NCBI GenBank assembly: GCA_011321725.1
Contig: DROX01000194.1
Span: 1-34,609, forward strand
Length of the DNA stretch: 34,609 bases
Source: Nitrospirota bacterium
GTDB lineage: Bacteria; Nitrospirota; Thermodesulfovibrionia; Thermodesulfovibrionales; JdFR-85
Direction: 5' to 3'
The notes below the pieces were generated by a model. The model ran no database searches. It had not been told where the DNA came from and saw nothing but the letters and a program-made list of their open reading frames with translations. How positions within the stretch are numbered: position 1 is the first letter of the stretch; each line of letters opens with the position of its first letter. Positions 14,065 to 22,656 of the stretch are shown here, piece after piece. Both the position numbers and the translations under genes were made by a program.

Positions 14065-14835
14065 CTATTCCTGTTTAACCGGCTTCCTTTCAGCCTCTTC
14101 TTTAATTGTGATGACAAACTTATAGATCGTCTTTCCACCACGACCATCCTCTACGGAGATCTCTACGGGAGTGTTCCCCTTAAAGTCATCTGGAACAACC
14201 CATTTGAAAAGACCACTCTGTTCATTCAGTTTGGCACCGTCAGGGGCTTTTATAAGCCTGTATACAAGGCTGTCTCCGTCCGGATCAGTGGCTTTAATCT
14301 GTTTTGTTACGGTCTTACCATCAAAGTCAAAGCTGTTATCATTTACCACCCTTGGCGGGGTGTTCCTGATATCAATGCTGAGCCTTCTTTCTGAGCTGTA
14401 ATCCTGTCCATCAAAGGCCCTAACCCTTACCAGGATACTGTCGCCACCCCTGAACTCATAAAACCGTTCACCATCGCCTGCCTCTTCCCCGTTCCTGTAC
14501 CATTTATACTCCATCTCAACATCATCACCGTCAGGATCAGCCGCCTGCGCTTCTACCCGGAGCACAGGTCTGTCACCATCCACATCCAGTACCAGCTTTG
14601 CATCCTTTATGACAGGAGGGGTGTTTTCTGTTTCTGCTACAGGTCCCTTGCCAGGATTTTCCATAGTGCCTGGAGGCTGAACATCCGCACCAGTGGAGTG
14701 GACCTTTTCGGTCTGTTTACCAGCGGCATCCTTGTTTTTTTGAACCTGCTCAGCCCTTTCCTTGCTACAGGCTGCAAGCTGAAGAGATATAAAAACAAGG
14801 AGTATAAAAAGAAAAAATGTCTTTATTGTTTTCAT
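14065..14835 (-). CDS. Lipoprotein with tandem Ig/cadherin-like domains, end of pilin operon
   Basis: 256 residues. A signal peptide ends in a lipobox (LAAC, Cys23, followed by Ser, so outer-membrane sorting is likely if E. coli rules hold). Residues 26-70 are a Lys/Glu/Gly/Pro-rich linker. Two beta-sandwich domains follow (about 72-157 and 158-245), each opening with NTPP and carrying an acidic turn (DPDGDD at 99-104; DPDGDS in the second) of the type that binds calcium in cadherin-like folds. The gene begins 35 nt after the PilX stop and is the last of the minor-pilin operon. It may help anchor or assemble the pilus tip at the outer membrane; that is inference from position. No named family is recognised. 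Confidence 0.85.
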   Translation of the reverse strand: MKTIKTFFLFILLVFISLQLAACSKERAEQVQKNKDAAGKQTEKVHSTGADVQPPGTMENPGKGPVAETENTPPVIKDAKLVLDVDGDRPVLRVEAQAADPDGDDVEMEYKWYRNGEEAGDGERFYEFRGGDSILVRVRAFDGQDYSSERRLSIDIRNTPPRVVNDNSFDFDGKTVTKQIKATDPDGDSLVYRLIKAPDGAKLNEQSGLFKWVVPDDFKGNTPVEISVEDGRGGKTIYKFVITIKEEAERKPVKQE

Positions 14836-14870: not shown

Positions 14871-15473
14871 TCAATAAGCATATAACGCTAAAACTTCGGC
14901 CGTATCTGAAGGGTCGTTATTATTTATGGTCTTTATAGCGATTGTATAGCCTCGTGGGACAGCCACCTGTCCGCTTTCACTATAAGGAGATACAACACCT
15001 CCAACCCTTATATTTTCGCCAAGTCTCGTGTTGCCCTCTACAGTATCAATGATTTTCAGATACACGGTATAATCCCCAAGACTCAGGACCATATCGGGTG
15101 AAACAGTGGGATCACTGTTTTCCTCATCAGCACTGCATGACACCCATTGATCTGTGTTATTTTCGTCTCTTTTTCTGTTCTCAAGTTTATCCTCAAAACA
15201 GTTCAAATTATTTACAGTGACCTTGCCTGTGGGATCAACACCTTTAAAGGCTATCACCTTGGTGGCTGTTCGTGCAGCCCCTTTAGCAGCAGCAAGGGCA
15301 CTGGTATAGCGCTTTTCCGTACCTGACAGACTCGTGCTCTGGAGCACCATGTAGATTGTGGCGGTTGCTATTGCCATGGAGACCAGAGCCAGTATCAGGG
15401 CAGTTACAAGAGCTATACCTTTTTCGTTCTTTATATAAATCCAGAGCCTGGAACCAGCCATGCTAAAGCTCAT
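14871..15473 (-). CDS. pilX: PilX-like minor pilin
   Basis: 200 residues. A short positively charged leader ends in NEKG (Gly19), followed by the hydrophobic IALVTALILALVSMAIATATI helix region characteristic of PilX N-termini, which lack the usual Glu at +5 of the mature protein. The helix continues into a small globular domain with two Cys residues (in NCFE and SCSADE) that could form a disulfide. PilX is a minor pilin that helps prime type IV pilus assembly. The start at 15473 has GGGAGG upstream. It lies 55 nt after the PilW stop and precedes the lipoprotein gene; a 7-bp stem (14851-14857/14868-14874) straddles its stop codon. The symbol is given by position and N-terminal signature. Confidence 0.83.
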   Translation of the reverse strand: MSFSMAGSRLWIYIKNEKGIALVTALILALVSMAIATATIYMVLQSTSLSGTEKRYTSALAAAKGAARTATKVIAFKGVDPTGKVTVNNLNCFEDKLENRKRDENNTDQWVSCSADEENSDPTVSPDMVLSLGDYTVYLKIIDTVEGNTRLGENIRVGGVVSPYSESGQVAVPRGYTIAIKTINNNDPSDTAEVLALYAY

Positions 15474-15528: not shown

Positions 15529-16833
15529 CTATTGGCCGCTTATATTCTCGGGCTTTACAATCAGGGTATATACCTTCCAGCGGTAGAAGCTGTATTCAGG
15601 GTCACCAACGAGTGCTGACAGATCCCTGTTACTGCCAAGGCCGAACTCACCAACAGTAACCGTCTGTTGGCCGAAGTTATAATCCATATCCCGTTGTCCT
15701 TCTTGGGCAAGTATATAAATTCTTATCTCCTTTAGCCTCTTCCTCAAAAGGGATGCACTGGACAATGTAGCCTGTACTTCAGCTGAAGTTGCATTTTCAG
15801 ATGAAAGTGACAATAGGGGAGAATCTACCACAGAAGAACCATCTGCATTTGAAAATGTACCTATCACACCGTCTTCATCCATATCAAGACCCAAAATCAC
15901 CTGAAAATCAGCAACACAATCAATAAGTGGTGAATCATCGGCAAGCTTACCATCCGATTGGTTCACTACCGACTTTCTTAAAACACCTGTACCTGGGGCA
16001 CAATGGGCAGGTACATTGCTTGTTGATATGTAGTAGTCAGCCCTGTTAAAGGGCATTCTTAACGAGTTGTCTGGCCCTACAGCGAAAAGAAGCACATTTT
16101 CTTTAGGCTGGAGGGTAAAGTTCCCTACCGCCTGCCCAAGGGTGGAACCGAAAAGATTATCATTACTGTTCTGGGGTGAATAAGTTAATAACATTCTCTC
16201 CACACTACTGGTCTGCACCGGTTTTACCGCGATCACCATTGTATTGTTCTGTATGTCCTCCACAGGATCAGGGCTGTTGCAATCCCCTGACCAGCAGTTC
16301 AGATGATCATTTGTACCATCATTCCAGATATAGGTCCACTTCTGTGCCTCATCACTATTTCTCACAACAGTGGACTTGATAACAAGATAATCAGTACCAT
16401 TAGCACACACATTATTGCCTCCCACTATAGCCCTTGGCGCATTGTTGGGAGCATCATTATAGGTATCAATGGTATGGCCTGTATTACATACCTCTTCCTT
16501 AGCAGCCTCATTGTATCCCGTTAAACTATTCCAGTCATCTGTGAAATTATTATTAGTATTAATGTCGTTTACATACCAGGGTAGTCCCAGCCCGGCATGC
16601 TCTATGTCCCACCTCAAAAGCTCAAGCCCTATTATCTTCTCCATCTGAGCCTCTGCTACCTTGCTCTGCTGTTTGGAGTTTTTTAGCACTGTAACAAAGC
16701 TGTTGGTGGAAAGTGCAAGGGCTACAAGGAGGATAAACATCACCACTATCAGTTCAATAAGGGTAAAACCCCTATTGTTCATCTTTGCTGCCTGTTTTCC
16801 CTGTTTTTTTAGATTGTCTGCTACATTCATCAT
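15529..16833 (-). CDS. pilW: PilW-like minor pilin
   Basis: 434 residues with a class III prepilin signal: NNRG (Gly22) then FTLIELIVV, giving Phe1 and Glu5 of the mature protein (Glu27 in the precursor). The hydrophobic N-terminal helix is followed by a large globular domain with several Cys residues, longer than the main pilin, as expected for PilW. The start ATG at 16833 overlaps the PilV stop codon (ATGA), but the Met18 codon would give a more typical short leader, so the true start is uncertain. It should be processed by a PilD-type peptidase, which is not encoded in this window. It acts in the pilus tip priming complex with PilV, PilX and PilY1. Confidence 0.86.
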   Translation of the reverse strand: MMNVADNLKKQGKQAAKMNNRGFTLIELIVVMFILLVALALSTNSFVTVLKNSKQQSKVAEAQMEKIIGLELLRWDIEHAGLGLPWYVNDINTNNNFTDDWNSLTGYNEAAKEEVCNTGHTIDTYNDAPNNAPRAIVGGNNVCANGTDYLVIKSTVVRNSDEAQKWTYIWNDGTNDHLNCWSGDCNSPDPVEDIQNNTMVIAVKPVQTSSVERMLLTYSPQNSNDNLFGSTLGQAVGNFTLQPKENVLLFAVGPDNSLRMPFNRADYYISTSNVPAHCAPGTGVLRKSVVNQSDGKLADDSPLIDCVADFQVILGLDMDEDGVIGTFSNADGSSVVDSPLLSLSSENATSAEVQATLSSASLLRKRLKEIRIYILAQEGQRDMDYNFGQQTVTVGEFGLGSNRDLSALVGDPEYSFYRWKVYTLIVKPENISGQ

Positions 16834-17246
16834 TGTCTCATAGAACTCATTGTATGGGTATAATTAACACCCCTGTACGGCCAGGTTACGCTTAACGTTA
16901 TTTCTTTTACATTATAATAGGTGCTCACTGTAGCTGAAAGGGAGTAGGTTACCGAAAAGTTTCTGAAGTTTCTTGTAACTTTAGCATTTGCGTACCCTAT
17001 TGAGCCAAAATCAGATTCTCCCCACGTGCCTGTTGTCAACTTGTCAACAGGTAAAGTGAGCATTCTATTCATAACCTCCTGTGCCACCTTTACCCCCTCG
17101 TCCCTGATGACATTTTTCATGTTTGTCATCATGGACATCTCTGTAACCTTGTAAAGCCCAAGCATGGTAATGAGAATGATTGAGAGTGCAAAGAGCACCT
17201 CTATGAGGGTAAACCCCTTTTTACCTGTTAACACAGCTTGCACCAT
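16830..17246 (-). CDS. pilV: PilV-like minor pilin
   Basis: 138 residues. The leader MVQAVLTGKKG is cut after Gly11; the mature protein starts FTLIEVLFALSIIL with Glu at +5 (Glu16). The following helix and small beta domain match the PilV/GspI type of minor pseudopilin. The gene overlaps the upstream GspH/FimT gene by 26 nt and the downstream PilW gene by 4 nt, so these three are tightly coupled. The TWPYRGVNYTHTMSS segment at the C-terminus is like the final strands of PilV/GspI proteins. The name rests on operon position and N-terminal pattern. Confidence 0.86.
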   Translation of the reverse strand: MVQAVLTGKKGFTLIEVLFALSIILITMLGLYKVTEMSMMTNMKNVIRDEGVKVAQEVMNRMLTLPVDKLTTGTWGESDFGSIGYANAKVTRNFRNFSVTYSLSATVSTYYNVKEITLSVTWPYRGVNYTHTMSSMRQ

Positions 17247-17748
17247 TCCACTTCCCCAGTTTAATACGTGTATTCGCTACGTTAATACAATCATACTCAG
17301 CATCATTATTCCGGTTAATCCTTATGCGTCCATTCACGTTAGCAAGCCCCTTATGGTCAAAGACTATCCTGCTTGTATTACCACCAAAGTTCCATGTGAG
17401 ATCATAGATAATCCCACTTTTTGTTAAATCATCAACAGGGGTATCACCAGGATTGTCCACCTGACCATCCTGGTCATTATCAATATATGTGGTATAAGAG
17501 TTTGTCGCAAGCTGTATCAGATACTGCTGGTTCCGGTAAAGCGCACGCATCCTTGCAGTGATCAGGTCAGCATAAAGGTCTTTTATCTCCTTCTCTATAT
17601 TGTACCTCACCATATAGGAATTGTATGCAAGGGCTGCAAGAGAAAGCAGCGCTATGATTATAGCAATGACTATCAACAGTTCCACAAGCGTAAAACCCTT
17701 GTTGTTTTTTAAATAATTCATCTTCTTACCCTTTATCATATACCTCAT
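17221..17748 (-). CDS. GspH/FimT-type minor pilin
   Basis: 175 residues. The prepilin motif KNNKG (Gly18) is followed by FTLVELLIVIAIIIALLSLAA with Glu at +5 (Glu23). The globular part contains a DNDQDGQVDNPGD stretch that resembles an EF-hand-like calcium loop, as in some minor pilins, and ends WNFGGNTSRIVFDHKGLANVNGRI, the signature of the GspH/FimT/FimU domain. Possible starts are Met1 (17748), Met4 and Met10; Met10 gives the most typical leader length and is preceded by AAAGGG, so the start is uncertain. It lies 21 nt after PilY1 and overlaps PilV. It equates by position to FimU/FimT of other type IV pilus clusters. Confidence 0.85.
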   Translation of the reverse strand: MRYMIKGKKMNYLKNNKGFTLVELLIVIAIIIALLSLAALAYNSYMVRYNIEKEIKDLYADLITARMRALYRNQQYLIQLATNSYTTYIDNDQDGQVDNPGDTPVDDLTKSGIIYDLTWNFGGNTSRIVFDHKGLANVNGRIRINRNNDAEYDCINVANTRIKLGKWNGASCVNR

Positions 17749-17769: not shown

Positions 17770-20700
17770 TTATTTCTCCTTTATGAATATAAAGTTCTCC
17801 AACGGATCAGGAGCCCCCAACACTGCAATCCCCTCACCCTGTGGTGGCACACCACTGATAGAAGCTGTTCTTCTATTGTTTTTTGTTGTAAAGACATCCT
17901 TTATAGCCACTTCTTTGATCTCCCCAGTGGAGAGTTGAAGCAGGGCCTTGCCTTTAAGGGCAGTGCTAGGTGCCTGGCCACCTGTCCTGTAGTCAACCGC
18001 CCAGATATAACTGTTACCACCATATCCACAGAGATCAGATGTAGGGCTGAAGGTGGTAAAGAATACAACCCCTGCAGAAGATGCCACAGGATTGGTAATA
18101 ACTCTTTCGGCAGAATATCCACTTGGTGCATTGCCTTCACAGGCACTGTTATTGTCAGTTGCAGAACAGTCAAGTTTTACATACCAGCCCTTAAAGGATG
18201 AAGAATATGCCTCGCTAACTGTGTAAGTCGTGGTAGTGGCGTCTTTGAGATCGCCTTCATTTACAGTGGTAGTACATGTAGGGCTTATATTATCAGTTGC
18301 GGCTGAATAGCAGGGTTCTTTTACCCCGTAGAGACGACGTCTGCCATCTGGATCATCAGTTTTGTAGAAATACCTGCCAGTTCCAAAGAACAGCCACAGT
18401 GTGTGTTGCTTTTTACTCCTTGCGTAGGCAACAGAAGTCGTGACAGGACCTGCGTCAAATTCAATGAACTTGCTCCACTTCCAGTCATTCGGATCAATAG
18501 ATGGTTTGGTTTTACTATTTGAACCACTGGTGGCAAGCCTTATGATACCTCCTCCTGTCCATGATGCATTGTTCCCGCTACCCACCTTTTTCACATAACT
18601 GATGTACATTACATCATCCTGGTAATCATCATCAAGGTCAATAGTTTGATAATACTGTGAGCCAGCAAATGCATTCTGTATGCCTGTATCAATTGTTCTC
18701 AGCAGTGTTCCTGTCTTGAGATCAAGTATAAAGAGTTTCAGGTTCTGGTCTGATTTTCCCTTGAATTCATTGTTAGCTGTGTCTATTGGCCCTGTGGGCC
18801 CCGAAGGAAGGACAACAAACCAGCGGCCGTTCTTCGTGTTGTCAGGTGAGCCACCTGTTGTTTTTGGACTGACCTTGACCACCACAGGTCCTGCAGTGGA
18901 AAATCCAAGACCGGGATCAGAGAATTCCCATAACAGTTTGGGATTCTTCTGGTCAGTTATATCAAGGGCAAAATATGAAGAATAACCCACATTACTGGTG
19001 GGAGTCTTTACACAGTCAGTACAGGTGGACGAGATATCCCTGCAAGCTCCTCCGAGCCTCATGCTCCCGATAAGTATGGTTCTCCATGTATCTGTTGTTT
19101 TTTTGCAATCCCAGTAGTTCGTCTCAGAGCATCCTGTGGTGCCAATGCTTGCATCAAACAGGAAGGGTGAGGCATCCACATAGTAGAGATGACAGTAGTC
19201 CGGTTCTTTGAGATACTTCAGGTAGGGCAGGGCATTCTTCGGAATAAATGCCCAGACCTCATCCCCAGGGCTGATACCATCAGATGTGTCAGGGTCTGTA
19301 ATCTTTGCCTTTTTTTCTGGATTATCAAGGTCATGGATCATCTCCAGCTTTCCAAGATAAAAGGCATGTAGCATCCCGTCGTTTGCTCCCACATAGACCA
19401 TGCCCCTGTCAGTATAGATTTTTGTTGTCTTTGGGCTACCGTCTGACTTAAGGTCATTCACATAATCATAGTATGTATTGTCATTGTACCTCTTGTAATA
19501 ATTGTTCAGTGAAATCCATGACTGTATCCTTGGAGTTGAATGAACTATGTCACCAAGTTTCCATGTGTTTGTAACAGAATTTATCGTTGCCGTTCTGCTC
19601 CTCAGGGATGTGCATGTCTCCCCTGCGGGACAGTCAGAATCAGTGGTGCAGACAGTTGTGGTTGTTGTGGAGCAGACTTTCAGGTCCTCGCCTCTGACAT
19701 ATCTTATGATTATATTTGCCTCATCAGTGCCAGAGGCATTCAAGAGACTCTCAAATGTTGGGTTACTCGTTGTCATCACCTCAAAGCTGTCAAGCGTGGA
19801 GTCATCATCAAGGTTTGTATATATCGTTCTGTCTGAAGGGGATTTCTGGAAGAGTTTCTCTCCTGCCTCCCAGAGGTTTTTAAGCTCTTCAAAATCCACA
19901 GTAGGTTTTGTGTTATCACAGTCTCCATCGCCATCACTGTCTTCACAGAGTGATGCCCTTGTCTTTCCAGCAGCATTATCAAAGTAAATACTTGTTATAT
20001 AATCCTGTTTGAGGTTGAGTTTGGAATCACTGATTGTATCCTCTCTTATGCTGCTCAGGTCAAAGAAGGGGTCAATGTAGTACCAGAGGTTCTGAAGCCT
20101 TCCTGTCCAGGAAAGCTCTGTCTGAACTGTGGACCCGTAGGTCTTCTTCGGATAAAACACAGCCTGTAGCAGATTCGCACCCTGTCCTTCACCTGAGGCA
20201 AGCACTGAAACAGCAGTACCAGAGGAGGCACGTTTGAGGATATTCTCAATAGCAGCCCTTAGCTGCTGTACAAGCTCACTTCCAGAGTCTGCACTGAAAT
20301 AGGTATCGGGCATACCATCTGCGTCATAATCCCATTCCCTGCACATCTCATCCCACTGGTCTGACGGATTACATGGATTCAGGGGCAGCAGATTACTGGT
20401 ATCTCTGCTGTTTGACTGCGGATAATTGGTCCTGTTATAAGGCCATGTGTTACTGTCAAAATCATCAAAGGCACCATACATTGCAATCTGCTGCATTGCT
20501 GTACGGCCTCCGGCTGCTGAAGCACCAAATGCCTCAAAGAGGGTATAGTGAATTAATGACTGCTTGCCTGTAATATCTGGCCTTATATCGTCTACATGGC
20601 TCTCCCTGACCTCATCAATGGGGTCTCCACCGGTGTTCCATTCACCATCTGAAAGGGTAAAGAGAAAACTCTTTCTGCAGGCAACAGCAGTGCCATTATC

Positions 20701-22284
20701 ATACCATGGATCTTTGCTTGAACCCTGTCCCTGAATAAAGGCATTGTTGCTGGAGTTGCAGCTTGTATTAGAATAGTTATCATTCTGCGTGAAATAATCA
20801 ATCGCCTCCTGGATGGCGTATGCTGTAGGTGTTGCACTTGAAGGGTCAATATTCTGGATCTGATTTATCAGGGCGCTCAGGTCAGCACCATCCACACCCA
20901 CCCTGATACGGGCACAGGAACCACTGAAGGTCATCAAGCCAATCCTTGGTGCATCGCTGTCATAGCTACAATCACCATCCTTGTCTGCCACCTCCAGGAT
21001 CACACCTTCTGTCCTCTTGCCCTCCGGCACATCCACACGGACATAGGCATTGGAGAGTGAGCCCACAGGACAACCACCTGAACTCTGACAGTATACAAAC
21101 TCATCATAAACACCCGTATCTGATGTACTTGCATCATATGATGCCACATCCAGTCCTATCAGCACAGGATCTGTCATGGTAACAGTAACATTACCCCTGT
21201 AATTCCAGTTAGTACCGTCCGTTGAATAATAGGCATAAAAGGTATCCCCCTGTCTAACAAGCCTCAGCCATACCGGATTGGTGTTGCCTAAATTAACATA
21301 ACCGGCAAAGGTATCTGTCAAGCCTCCATCGGTAAGTCTCCTCGCAAACTGGAGTGTCCAGCCTGTCCCGGATTGATAAGTAACATTGGCCATCACATGT
21401 CTGCTATCCGTTGCAGTTGACTGCCTTACCATAAGACCCGCCTTTGCCCATGTTTGTCCGGAAAGAGCCCCTGGAGGGTTTATAACCCTTACTCTGATAT
21501 CAAAGTCACCGCTCACAGACTGGTATACATAGGTGAATTCATCTGTATCACTCCATATCTGCTGACCATTTGTTTGAACCGAGAGATTCCCCCCGCTTTC
21601 CGTGATCGTACTTGTCACAGAGGGTGACTGGCTTCCTATGTCTGCCACAGTCCATTTTGAATCAAAGGAGGCATCATTGAAGTCATCTGAATACACTGTA
21701 TCCGGTGTACACTGGCTTGGCCCACTACCATAGGTGCTTATGGTTATGCGATGAGAAAGCCCCGAGGGACTCTGAACCTGAAAGGAACATCCCAGATTTG
21801 AATCATACACTGTCCAGTCACTGCCCTCTCCGTACAGGGTGTTTATGTTACACTGGTTTGAGGATGCCTTTCCACCTATCAATGCCATTCTCATTACATC
21901 CACCCTTGACATAGTTGCCCAGTTGAGGAGATTTCCTGAGATACAGTCAGGGCTTCCGATCCTGTCTGTATCTGTACAGGTATCATTTACAAAGAACTTG
22001 TTGCTCTGGTACTTGTAATACTTGTCTGACTTGAAATAACCGTAGTAATCTGTATTTGGATCATAGGTCTCATTCAGTGAATTACAGGTGTAACTCTCAC
22101 AACTCAGATAGGCAGGCCATTGCATACTGCCGGAGAAGTCAAGGTTCAGCATAATGTTGGGAGCCAGGGTGGTCATGATAAAGGGGGGTTTTACACAATA
22201 GTCATTCATTGTCTGGCTTCTACCTGTCACAGGCATTATAAGCACAATAACAAATGCTAAAATATATTTCCATATTCCCTTCAT
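17770..22284 (-). CDS. pilY1: PilY1-type tip adhesin with lectin-like insertion
   Basis: 1504 residues counted from the ATG at 22284, chosen over a GTG at 22290 because AAGGAG (22295-22290) is ideally spaced from it. A signal peptide (about 1-24) is followed by a von Willebrand A domain with an intact MIDAS: Asp49-x-Ser51-x-Ser53 in LDFSGSM, a Thr in SSATPTA near 485, and Asp546 in TLSDGEWN. Between these parts, residues about 196-399 form an inserted concanavalin/LamG-like (DUF1349-type) domain. The C-terminal half is the PilY1 beta-propeller, with GANDGMLHAF near 965 and an Asp-rich DLDDDYQDD site near 1215 like the calcium site of Pseudomonas PilY1. A Thr/Cys-rich stretch lies near 868-893. 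PilY1 caps the pilus, promotes extension and binds surfaces. Confidence 0.94.
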   Translation of the reverse strand: MKGIWKYILAFVIVLIMPVTGRSQTMNDYCVKPPFIMTTLAPNIMLNLDFSGSMQWPAYLSCESYTCNSLNETYDPNTDYYGYFKSDKYYKYQSNKFFVNDTCTDTDRIGSPDCISGNLLNWATMSRVDVMRMALIGGKASSNQCNINTLYGEGSDWTVYDSNLGCSFQVQSPSGLSHRITISTYGSGPSQCTPDTVYSDDFNDASFDSKWTVADIGSQSPSVTSTITESGGNLSVQTNGQQIWSDTDEFTYVYQSVSGDFDIRVRVINPPGALSGQTWAKAGLMVRQSTATDSRHVMANVTYQSGTGWTLQFARRLTDGGLTDTFAGYVNLGNTNPVWLRLVRQGDTFYAYYSTDGTNWNYRGNVTVTMTDPVLIGLDVASYDASTSDTGVYDEFVYCQSSGGCPVGSLSNAYVRVDVPEGKRTEGVILEVADKDGDCSYDSDAPRIGLMTFSGSCARIRVGVDGADLSALINQIQNIDPSSATPTAYAIQEAIDYFTQNDNYSNTSCNSSNNAFIQGQGSSKDPWYDNGTAVACRKSFLFTLSDGEWNTGGDPIDEVRESHVDDIRPDITGKQSLIHYTLFEAFGASAAGGRTAMQQIAMYGAFDDFDSNTWPYNRTNYPQSNSRDTSNLLPLNPCNPSDQWDEMCREWDYDADGMPDTYFSADSGSELVQQLRAAIENILKRASSGTAVSVLASGEGQGANLLQAVFYPKKTYGSTVQTELSWTGRLQNLWYYIDPFFDLSSIREDTISDSKLNLKQDYITSIYFDNAAGKTRASLCEDSDGDGDCDNTKPTVDFEELKNLWEAGEKLFQKSPSDRTIYTNLDDDSTLDSFEVMTTSNPTFESLLNASGTDEANIIIRYVRGEDLKVCSTTTTTVCTTDSDCPAGETCTSLRSRTATINSVTNTWKLGDIVHSTPRIQSWISLNNYYKRYNDNTYYDYVNDLKSDGSPKTTKIYTDRGMVYVGANDGMLHAFYLGKLEMIHDLDNPEKKAKITDPDTSDGISPGDEVWAFIPKNALPYLKYLKEPDYCHLYYVDASPFLFDASIGTTGCSETNYWDCKKTTDTWRTILIGSMRLGGACRDISSTCTDCVKTPTSNVGYSSYFALDITDQKNPKLLWEFSDPGLGFSTAGPVVVKVSPKTTGGSPDNTKNGRWFVVLPSGPTGPIDTANNEFKGKSDQNLKLFILDLKTGTLLRTIDTGIQNAFAGSQYYQTIDLDDDYQDDVMYISYVKKVGSGNNASWTGGGIIRLATSGSNSKTKPSIDPNDWKWSKFIEFDAGPVTTSVAYARSKKQHTLWLFFGTGRYFYKTDDPDGRRRLYGVKEPCYSAATDNISPTCTTTVNEGDLKDATTTTYTVSEAYSSSFKGWYVKLDCSATDNNSACEGNAPSGYSAERVITNPVASSAGVVFFTTFSPTSDLCGYGGNSYIWAVDYRTGGQAPSTALKGKALLQLSTGEIKEVAIKDVFTTKNNRRTASISGVPPQGEGIAVLGAPDPLENFIFIKEK
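21088..21699 (-). other. Lectin-like domain inserted in the PilY1 VWA domain
   Basis: Codons for residues about 196-399 of PilY1. The region opens YSDDFNDASFDSKW and contains SGDFDIRVRV, AGLMVRQS and VWLRLVRQGDTFYAYYSTDGTNW, the typical run of a DUF1349/LamG-like beta-sandwich found in secreted glycan-active proteins. VWA sequence resumes right after it (RIGLMTFSGSCARIRV). Cys residues flank it closely. Confidence 0.75.
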
Positions 22285-22293
22285 ATGCACTCC

Positions 22294-22656
22294 TTAACTC
22301 TTGAATTTGAGGATCTTCACTTTACGCACACAGTCCTCTCTATTGCTGTAGAATGCCTTTACCTCAGCGGCCTCTTTGAGCAACCTCATCTTAATAGCCT
22401 GGCCATTTTCATTAAAAACCTTCACCCTTCTGCAGAGAGGATACTCCTCCTCATTTATTACCATAATAGAGCCTTTTTGCCAGGTTACACCACCAACCAC
22501 CACCTCATCACCGGGCAAAACCGTATCTGCACCCTCTTCAATATATTTCCCTTCCTCCTGAGCATATGCATTTATCTTATATACAGAGAACAGAAAACCA
22601 ACCAGGCAAATGATAACTATTAAAGCAAGTCTGCTATAAATACTATCTCCTCTCAT
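22294..22656 (-). CDS. Small secreted protein, first gene of the minor pilin operon
   Basis: 120 residues. A hydrophobic segment (10-27) ends in a good signal peptidase I site (AYA, residues 30-32), leaving an 88-residue mature protein with two Cys residues (Cys75, Cys109) that may form a disulfide. No family is recognised. The sequence pattern VLPGDEVVVGGVTWQKGSI suggests a small beta-barrel, which is a guess. A strong ribosome-binding site (GAGGAGGT, 22671-22664) precedes the ATG. The stop codon overlaps the PilY1 ribosome-binding site, so translation is coupled, and the protein is probably a periplasmic partner of PilY1 or the tip complex. Confidence 0.8.
   Translation of the reverse strand: MRGDSIYSRLALIVIICLVGFLFSVYKINAYAQEEGKYIEEGADTVLPGDEVVVGGVTWQKGSIMVINEEEYPLCRRVKVFNENGQAIKMRLLKEAAEVKAFYSNREDCVRKVKILKFKS

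Follow-up and report, generated by a model that had tools for sequence, protein, structure and literature searches.

PilY1 homologues are located at the pilus tip and are required for piliation. The locus described here raises the question of whether the VWA domain of one such protein is interrupted by a domain of another fold and, if so, where this head came from and what it might do. It lies on a stretch of 34,609 nucleotides from a Nitrospirota bacterium (contig DROX01000194.1), referred to below as the window, for which a sequence-only reading had proposed a lectin-like (DUF1349/LamG-like) domain of about 204 residues (21088-21699, residues 198-401) within the VWA domain of PilY1. The gene and its downstream neighbours are the following:

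17770..22290, minus strand: pilY1 coding sequence, 1506 residues, GTG start
18316..19413, minus strand: PilY1 beta-propeller, residues 960-1325 (Pfam T4P_PilY1)
17221..17748, minus strand: minor pilin FimT/GspH (Pfam), syntenic with the window's family
16830..17246, minus strand: minor pilin with an N-methylation motif, in the PilV position (Pfam)
15529..16833, minus strand: minor pilin PilW (N_methyl above the cut-off, PilW just below it), syntenic with the family
14871..15473, minus strand: minor pilin PilX (Pfam PilX_N)

The identification as PilY1 holds, given the propeller (residues 960-1325 match the T4P_PilY1 profile with 32.2 bits against a cut-off of 28.1) and the minor-pilin operon, in which Pfam recognizes FimT/GspH, N_methyl, PilW-like and PilX_N genes immediately downstream. 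The tail moreover matches the PilY1 structure 3hx6 of the PDB (E 1.8e-7). No second PilY1 was found in assembly GCA_011321725.1, where ORF 17770..22290 is the sole PilY1 match. The minor pilin operon ends with a predicted lipoprotein-like protein carrying a bacterial Ig/cadherin-like domain (Big_9, He_PIG; 14065-14835, minus strand), a relative of which is found near pilY1 in L171 (8433-8972).

The N-terminal part of the protein is organized as follows:

21730..22209, minus strand: VWA head, first part, residues 28-187, with helix GNLLNWATMSRVDVMRMALIGGK (alignments, AlphaFold model)
22126..22140, minus strand: MIDAS motif 1, D51-F-S53-G-S55 (DxSxS, residues 51-55), invariant in 13 heads
21073..21729, minus strand: inserted block, spanning residues 188-406 and missing from the empty-site homologues L027/L057
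21088..21708, minus strand: DUF1349/ConA-like beta-sandwich, residues 195-401, between C194 and C401 (Pfam; fold match 3o12)
20224..21072, minus strand: VWA head, second part, residues 407-689 (alignments, AlphaFold model)
20830..20832, minus strand: MIDAS Thr487, invariant in 13 heads
20647..20649, minus strand: MIDAS Asp548 (LSDGEW), invariant in 13 heads

Alignment with the empty-site homologues L027 and L057, in which 37 residues separate the fully matched flanks, as against 251 in the window protein, delimits an extra block of about 214 residues (approximately 188-406), starting after ...RITISTY and ending before CPVGSLSNAYVRVDV. The block is placed between MIDAS motif 1 (51-55) and the MIDAS residues Thr487 and Asp548; thus, the location originally proposed stands, the size being slightly larger than the 204 residues first given. 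The DxSxS...T...D signature of the MIDAS is complete, D51, S53, S55, T487 and D548 being invariant in the 13 aligned heads, which indicates that the insert was gained without loss of the metal site. The Pfam VWA profile matches the window protein with 15.2 bits against a cut-off of 23.8 and over residues 443-505 only, as one would expect of a VWA domain split by the insert.

When the whole protein is searched, the Pfam family DUF1349 (PF07081) is recognized on residues 231-384 (E 6.7e-9, 36.1 bits versus a cut-off of 32.4), together with GH43_C2 above its Pfam cut-off (E 3.9e-5); the insert alone gives E-values of 2.3e-10 and 1.1e-6, respectively. In the AlphaFold model of the head, built with 13 sequences (mean pLDDT 76), the insert appears as an all-beta block with strands in the order of the family, located between elements of the VWA fold, its first strand and the linkers having pLDDT values below 50. 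The best Foldseek match is 3o12 (yeast YJL217W; E 1.1e-9, TM 0.72 by target), which is covered over nearly its whole length, followed by numerous GH43 xylosidases and, lower in the ranking, by the lectin domain of ERGIC-53. Profile, alignment and fold search therefore confirm the proposed lectin-like domain: model and search returned a beta-sandwich (3o12, GH43) and not a VWA fold, and the empty-site homologues together with the fold match rule out that the insert is an ordinary part of the latter. As modelled, residues ~195-401 form a DUF1349/GH43-type (ConA-like) beta-sandwich inserted in a single inter-strand loop of a VWA domain whose MIDAS is intact. A search for a phage source of the insert gave no match among 50,697 phage records, and nucleotide composition, considered as a sign of recent foreign DNA, was uninformative (GC 0.467 for the insert, 0.459 for the gene).

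We further analyzed the distribution of the domain. The DUF1349 module occupies this PilY1 site in 10 genomes from two Nitrospirota orders, of which two (the window and G048) contain a linear form and eight a permuted one. Of 177 genomes from the window's order, three contain the close domain clade, namely the window, G048, where the site is the same, and G005, where the domain belongs to a different PilY1-like protein (L032). A Nitrospirota sample of 396 genomes yielded 4 further carriers, and in the order to which these four belong 8 of 47 genomes are positive, all eight domains being found in PilY1 heads. As the proposed comparison with relatives bears out, the insert is limited to some lineages, with L027 and L057 as empty-site homologues; among the Nitrospirota genomes searched, the DUF1349 block is a clade-specific addition to the PilY1 VWA head. 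Identity of the module core across the two orders is 42-71%, and the placement of the insert cores in a whole tree with distant outgroups was mostly unresolved, owing to long branches. The G048 pilY1 gene (L002/L052) contains one in-frame TAA after 1067 codons, reflecting either an assembly error or decay. The PilY1-like protein of G005 (L032, 2153-6508), a second protein of this kind from the window's family, carries a linear DUF1349 domain and no recognisable VWA; the reading frame upstream of its gene looks interrupted.

The same interval accommodates other cargo in other PilY1 proteins: He_PIG Ig-like domains in L040 and L038 (E 1.6e-13 and 5.3e-13, above the cut-off) and, in L058/L036 and L039, a block of some 200 residues without assignment. 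L070 shows a weak PA14 match, below the cut-off, in the corresponding region, and a PA14-like region is seen in the same part of the protein among L068, L070, L034, L042 and L043. In L035 and L045 the insertion point is a different one, immediately after MIDAS motif 1, and contains repeat-like segments.

Comparing the inserts of the two orders, it becomes apparent that the strands are not connected in the same way. In the eight permuted genomes, which represent seven genera (L053, 2706-7232; L054, 5977-10620; L160, L161 and L164-L167), strand 1 is shifted to the C-terminal end and the remainder is colinear with the linear form. In L053 and L054 positions 35-196 of the profile come first and are followed by positions 7-64, of which only approximately 7-34 are convincing. 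The segment with which the domain begins in the window and G048 (e.g. SDDFNDASFDSKWTVADIG) is the one that ends it in L053/L054 (DDNFDDGSFNSTVWTAEDIN). With approximately 30 residues the moved strand is short, and taken as a single sequence it matches only weakly (13.2 and 10.4 bits), as one might expect if the permuted order were an artefact of alignment or an error of assembly. We consider such an origin hardly credible. Indeed, the six further genomes present the same permuted order and the same cysteines as L053/L054 (one ahead of the new first strand, two where the old ends are joined, another following the moved strand and a last one just before the return to the VWA), and no strand-1 motif is left ahead of the permuted core in any of the eight. 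Moreover, the inserts of L053, L054, L160 and L161 score 36-70 points higher on a doubled than on a plain linear insert (window or G048), and none of 500 tail shuffles reached the observed score in any of the eight comparisons with these two references. The more distant L032 provides a weaker test when used as reference (0, 3, 4 and 14 of 500 shuffles). At the sequence level, the DUF1349 domain at the same site in the second Nitrospirota order is thus circularly permuted, and since linear and permuted forms have the same VWA flanks, they represent one inserted domain in two connectivities.

The linear order is the normal one of the family, since GH43_C2 covers the linear G048 insert at profile positions 1 to 202 of 203, and the permuted form was probably derived from it. 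Permutations usually arise when a tandem duplication is followed by loss of its outer portions; an intermediate with such a duplication was not seen among the module carriers found. Core identity is 66% between linear G048 and permuted L053, and 54% between the permuted L053 and L054. The AlphaFold model of permuted L053 is weak (mean pLDDT 66), with 3o12, GH43 and CBM66 as top matches at low TM, and grouping of the permuted heads as a single clade was neither supported nor rejected (p-AU 0.115 and 0.129).

Head and tail of the window protein have different relatives. Two further features are concerned:

20131..20310, minus strand: head-tail junction region, residues 661-720, around SSGTAVSVLASGEG (sliding identity; discordant trees)
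22294..22656, minus strand: small predicted secreted protein, 120 residues, upstream of all ten insert-bearing heads

Sliding identity reveals that the nearest relatives switch at residues ~660-720, with a junction near 690, around which the motif SSGTAxSVLASGEG, or a close variant of it, is common to PilY1 proteins. In the head tree, calculated with the insert excluded and five insert-bearing heads sampled, the window groups with the other insert-bearing heads (97/96), beside the empty-site heads L027 and L055, and forcing it into its own family is strongly rejected (dlnL 291, AU p 1e-56). In the tail tree it groups with the family member L003 (100/99), and forcing it into the insert-bearing clade is likewise rejected (dlnL 691, AU p 1.3e-28). 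The permuted heads also sit on different tails, L053 and L160 on one type and L054 on another. One might suppose that the gene was inherited or transferred in its entirety and that long branches or paralogy produced the conflict between trees, the heads being fast-evolving and the window's family having several PilY1 paralogues per genome. Such an explanation is very improbable in view of the strength of the conflict in both directions (AU p 1e-56, 1e-28), of the identity profiles, which cross near residues 660-720, and of the two gene flanks, which track different relatives. The window pilY1 is thus a chimera, with a head and a tail of different ancestry that switch near the conserved junction. 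The only congener with the gene, G001, has no head because its contig ends there. In two members of the window's family (G006 C58, G016 C80), several pilY1 genes lie close together on one contig, which suggests alternative tips.

The flanks concerned are, on the downstream side, minor pilins syntenic with those of the window's family (about 50% identity to L168) and, upstream, the gene of the 120-residue protein, which resembles the neighbours of G048 and of the permuted heads. Each of the ten insert-bearing heads has such a gene upstream, and more distant relatives precede many other PilY1 genes. Pfam gave no match for the protein, and the name PilY2 was considered and dropped for this reason. 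Since upstream gene and head follow the insert-bearing loci and minor pilins and tail follow the family, head and partner would have travelled together; judged from these sequence relationships, they appear to have moved jointly onto a resident tail, and the head may be functionally paired with the predicted secreted small protein.

As to the role of the sandwich, we favour, as the rather more probable reading, a carbohydrate- or surface-polymer-binding DUF1349 module, carried as a VWA loop domain at the PilY1 tip, permuted in relatives and belonging to a protein of chimeric head and tail. The conserved tail and the minor pilins would keep pilus assembly going, and the VWA head, at the extreme tip of the pilus, would bear the sandwich, on which extension, binding and retraction might exert a pulling load through the VWA head. 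C194 and C401 at the ends of the sandwich are a putative staple against pulling, and the permuted form may have gained a second cysteine pair at its new ends. Whole heads would spread by recombination onto resident tails, which in turn would need to remain compatible with the minor pilins of the host. Glycan binding by the insert is plausible in view of its fold, its relationship to domains found in carbohydrate-active enzymes and the precedent of S. sanguinis PilC: the non-pilus sequence relatives of the insert are haloarchaeal pectate lyases and DUF1349 proteins, and the fold relatives of the inserts include GH43 xylosidases, CBM66 and ERGIC-53. No binding residues could be identified in the insert, and no citable literature on an established DUF1349 ligand was found.

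GH43_C2 domains are often structural, and the sandwich might accordingly be a spacer or brace that binds nothing, gives the VWA head more length or stiffness and leaves adhesion to the MIDAS. The differing modules (He_PIG, unassigned) at the same site in other PilY1 proteins are what one would expect if only bulk mattered. We hold this to be unlikely, as the module has been conserved in both orders, with 42-71% core identity, recurs in the second PilY1-like protein (L032), and has a counterpart that is a real lectin, the ConA-like module at the pilus tip of S. sanguinis (PilC; PMC9934059). Equally doubtful in our opinion is that the module has a protein or a metal as its ligand, or acts as a regulator of the VWA MIDAS, instead of recognizing a glycan: its closest non-pilus sequence and fold relatives include carbohydrate-active enzymes, even if LamG/ConA-like folds also bind proteins. 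The position of the insert within the VWA, between MIDAS motif 1 and the MIDAS Thr, would suit such a role, VWA domains being often protein-binding (PMC9109919).

Insertions in PilY1 VWA heads, as in Acinetobacter ComC, and ConA-like pilus-tip lectins, as in S. sanguinis PilC, are already known. Like the window protein, ComC variants have a lineage-specific insertion within the VWA scaffold of the tip adhesin, a finger in the vWFa domain whose deletion impairs adhesion, twitching and DNA uptake (PMC10374093). The authors of that study argue that PilY1 VWA scaffolds take lineage-specific insertions; in contrast to the window, the finger described there is a Tyr-rich protrusion with no recognisable domain, and no description of permutation or head-tail chimerism was found in the part consulted (PMC10374093). 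To this the present loci add identifiable domains and a shared insertion site. Myxococcus xanthus PilY1.1/1.2, which have DUF4114 heads (PMC9109919; PMC13190605), likewise have a domain of sugar-binding type in their N-terminal half and a propeller tail that is conserved, but DUF4114 replaces the VWA whereas the ConA-like domain of the window is inserted within an intact one. In Streptococcus sanguinis PilC, a ConA-like beta-sandwich is also found at a type 4 pilus tip, as a proven lectin (PMC9934059); that module is grafted onto a minor pilin and is a proven glycan binder, whereas the window module lies in a PilY1 VWA and its binding is presumed. DUF1349 proteins and GH43 C-terminal domains (3o12, 2exh, 6ms3) share sequence family and fold with the insert, but are free-standing or attached to enzymes and not inserted in an adhesin loop. 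Concanavalin A offers a parallel in that the ConA-like fold is known in normal and permuted order; its permutation is post-translational, whereas the Nitrospirota inserts differ in gene order between lineages. Concanavalin A is a circularly permuted legume lectin (PMC3320104).

A 2026 survey reports that, besides vWFA and DUF4114, no further N-terminal domains of PilY1 have been identified, and calls the origin of PilY1 head diversity an open question (PMC13190605). In the open-access literature we found no report of DUF1349/LamG in PilY1 or of a permuted pilus-tip module, nor of this PilY1 head-tail chimerism. The loci add a third recognisable N-terminal domain of PilY1, inserted inside the VWA fold, and one gene with a head and a tail of different ancestry is direct evidence for one route to diversity. 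Occurring at one site and with core identities of up to 66%, the linear and permuted forms constitute a natural experiment on how an adhesin is affected by where its termini are placed and by the direction of force. It seems that pilus tips are assembled from exchangeable head modules. More tentatively, and with slightly more doubt than conviction, PilY1 heads could be regarded as cassettes, consisting of the partner gene and a VWA head with cargo in a fixed loop, that recombine at the junction, the cargo having been permuted in place in one lineage. If this is true, the permuted sandwich would join the head by a different edge, which may alter what the pilus grips.
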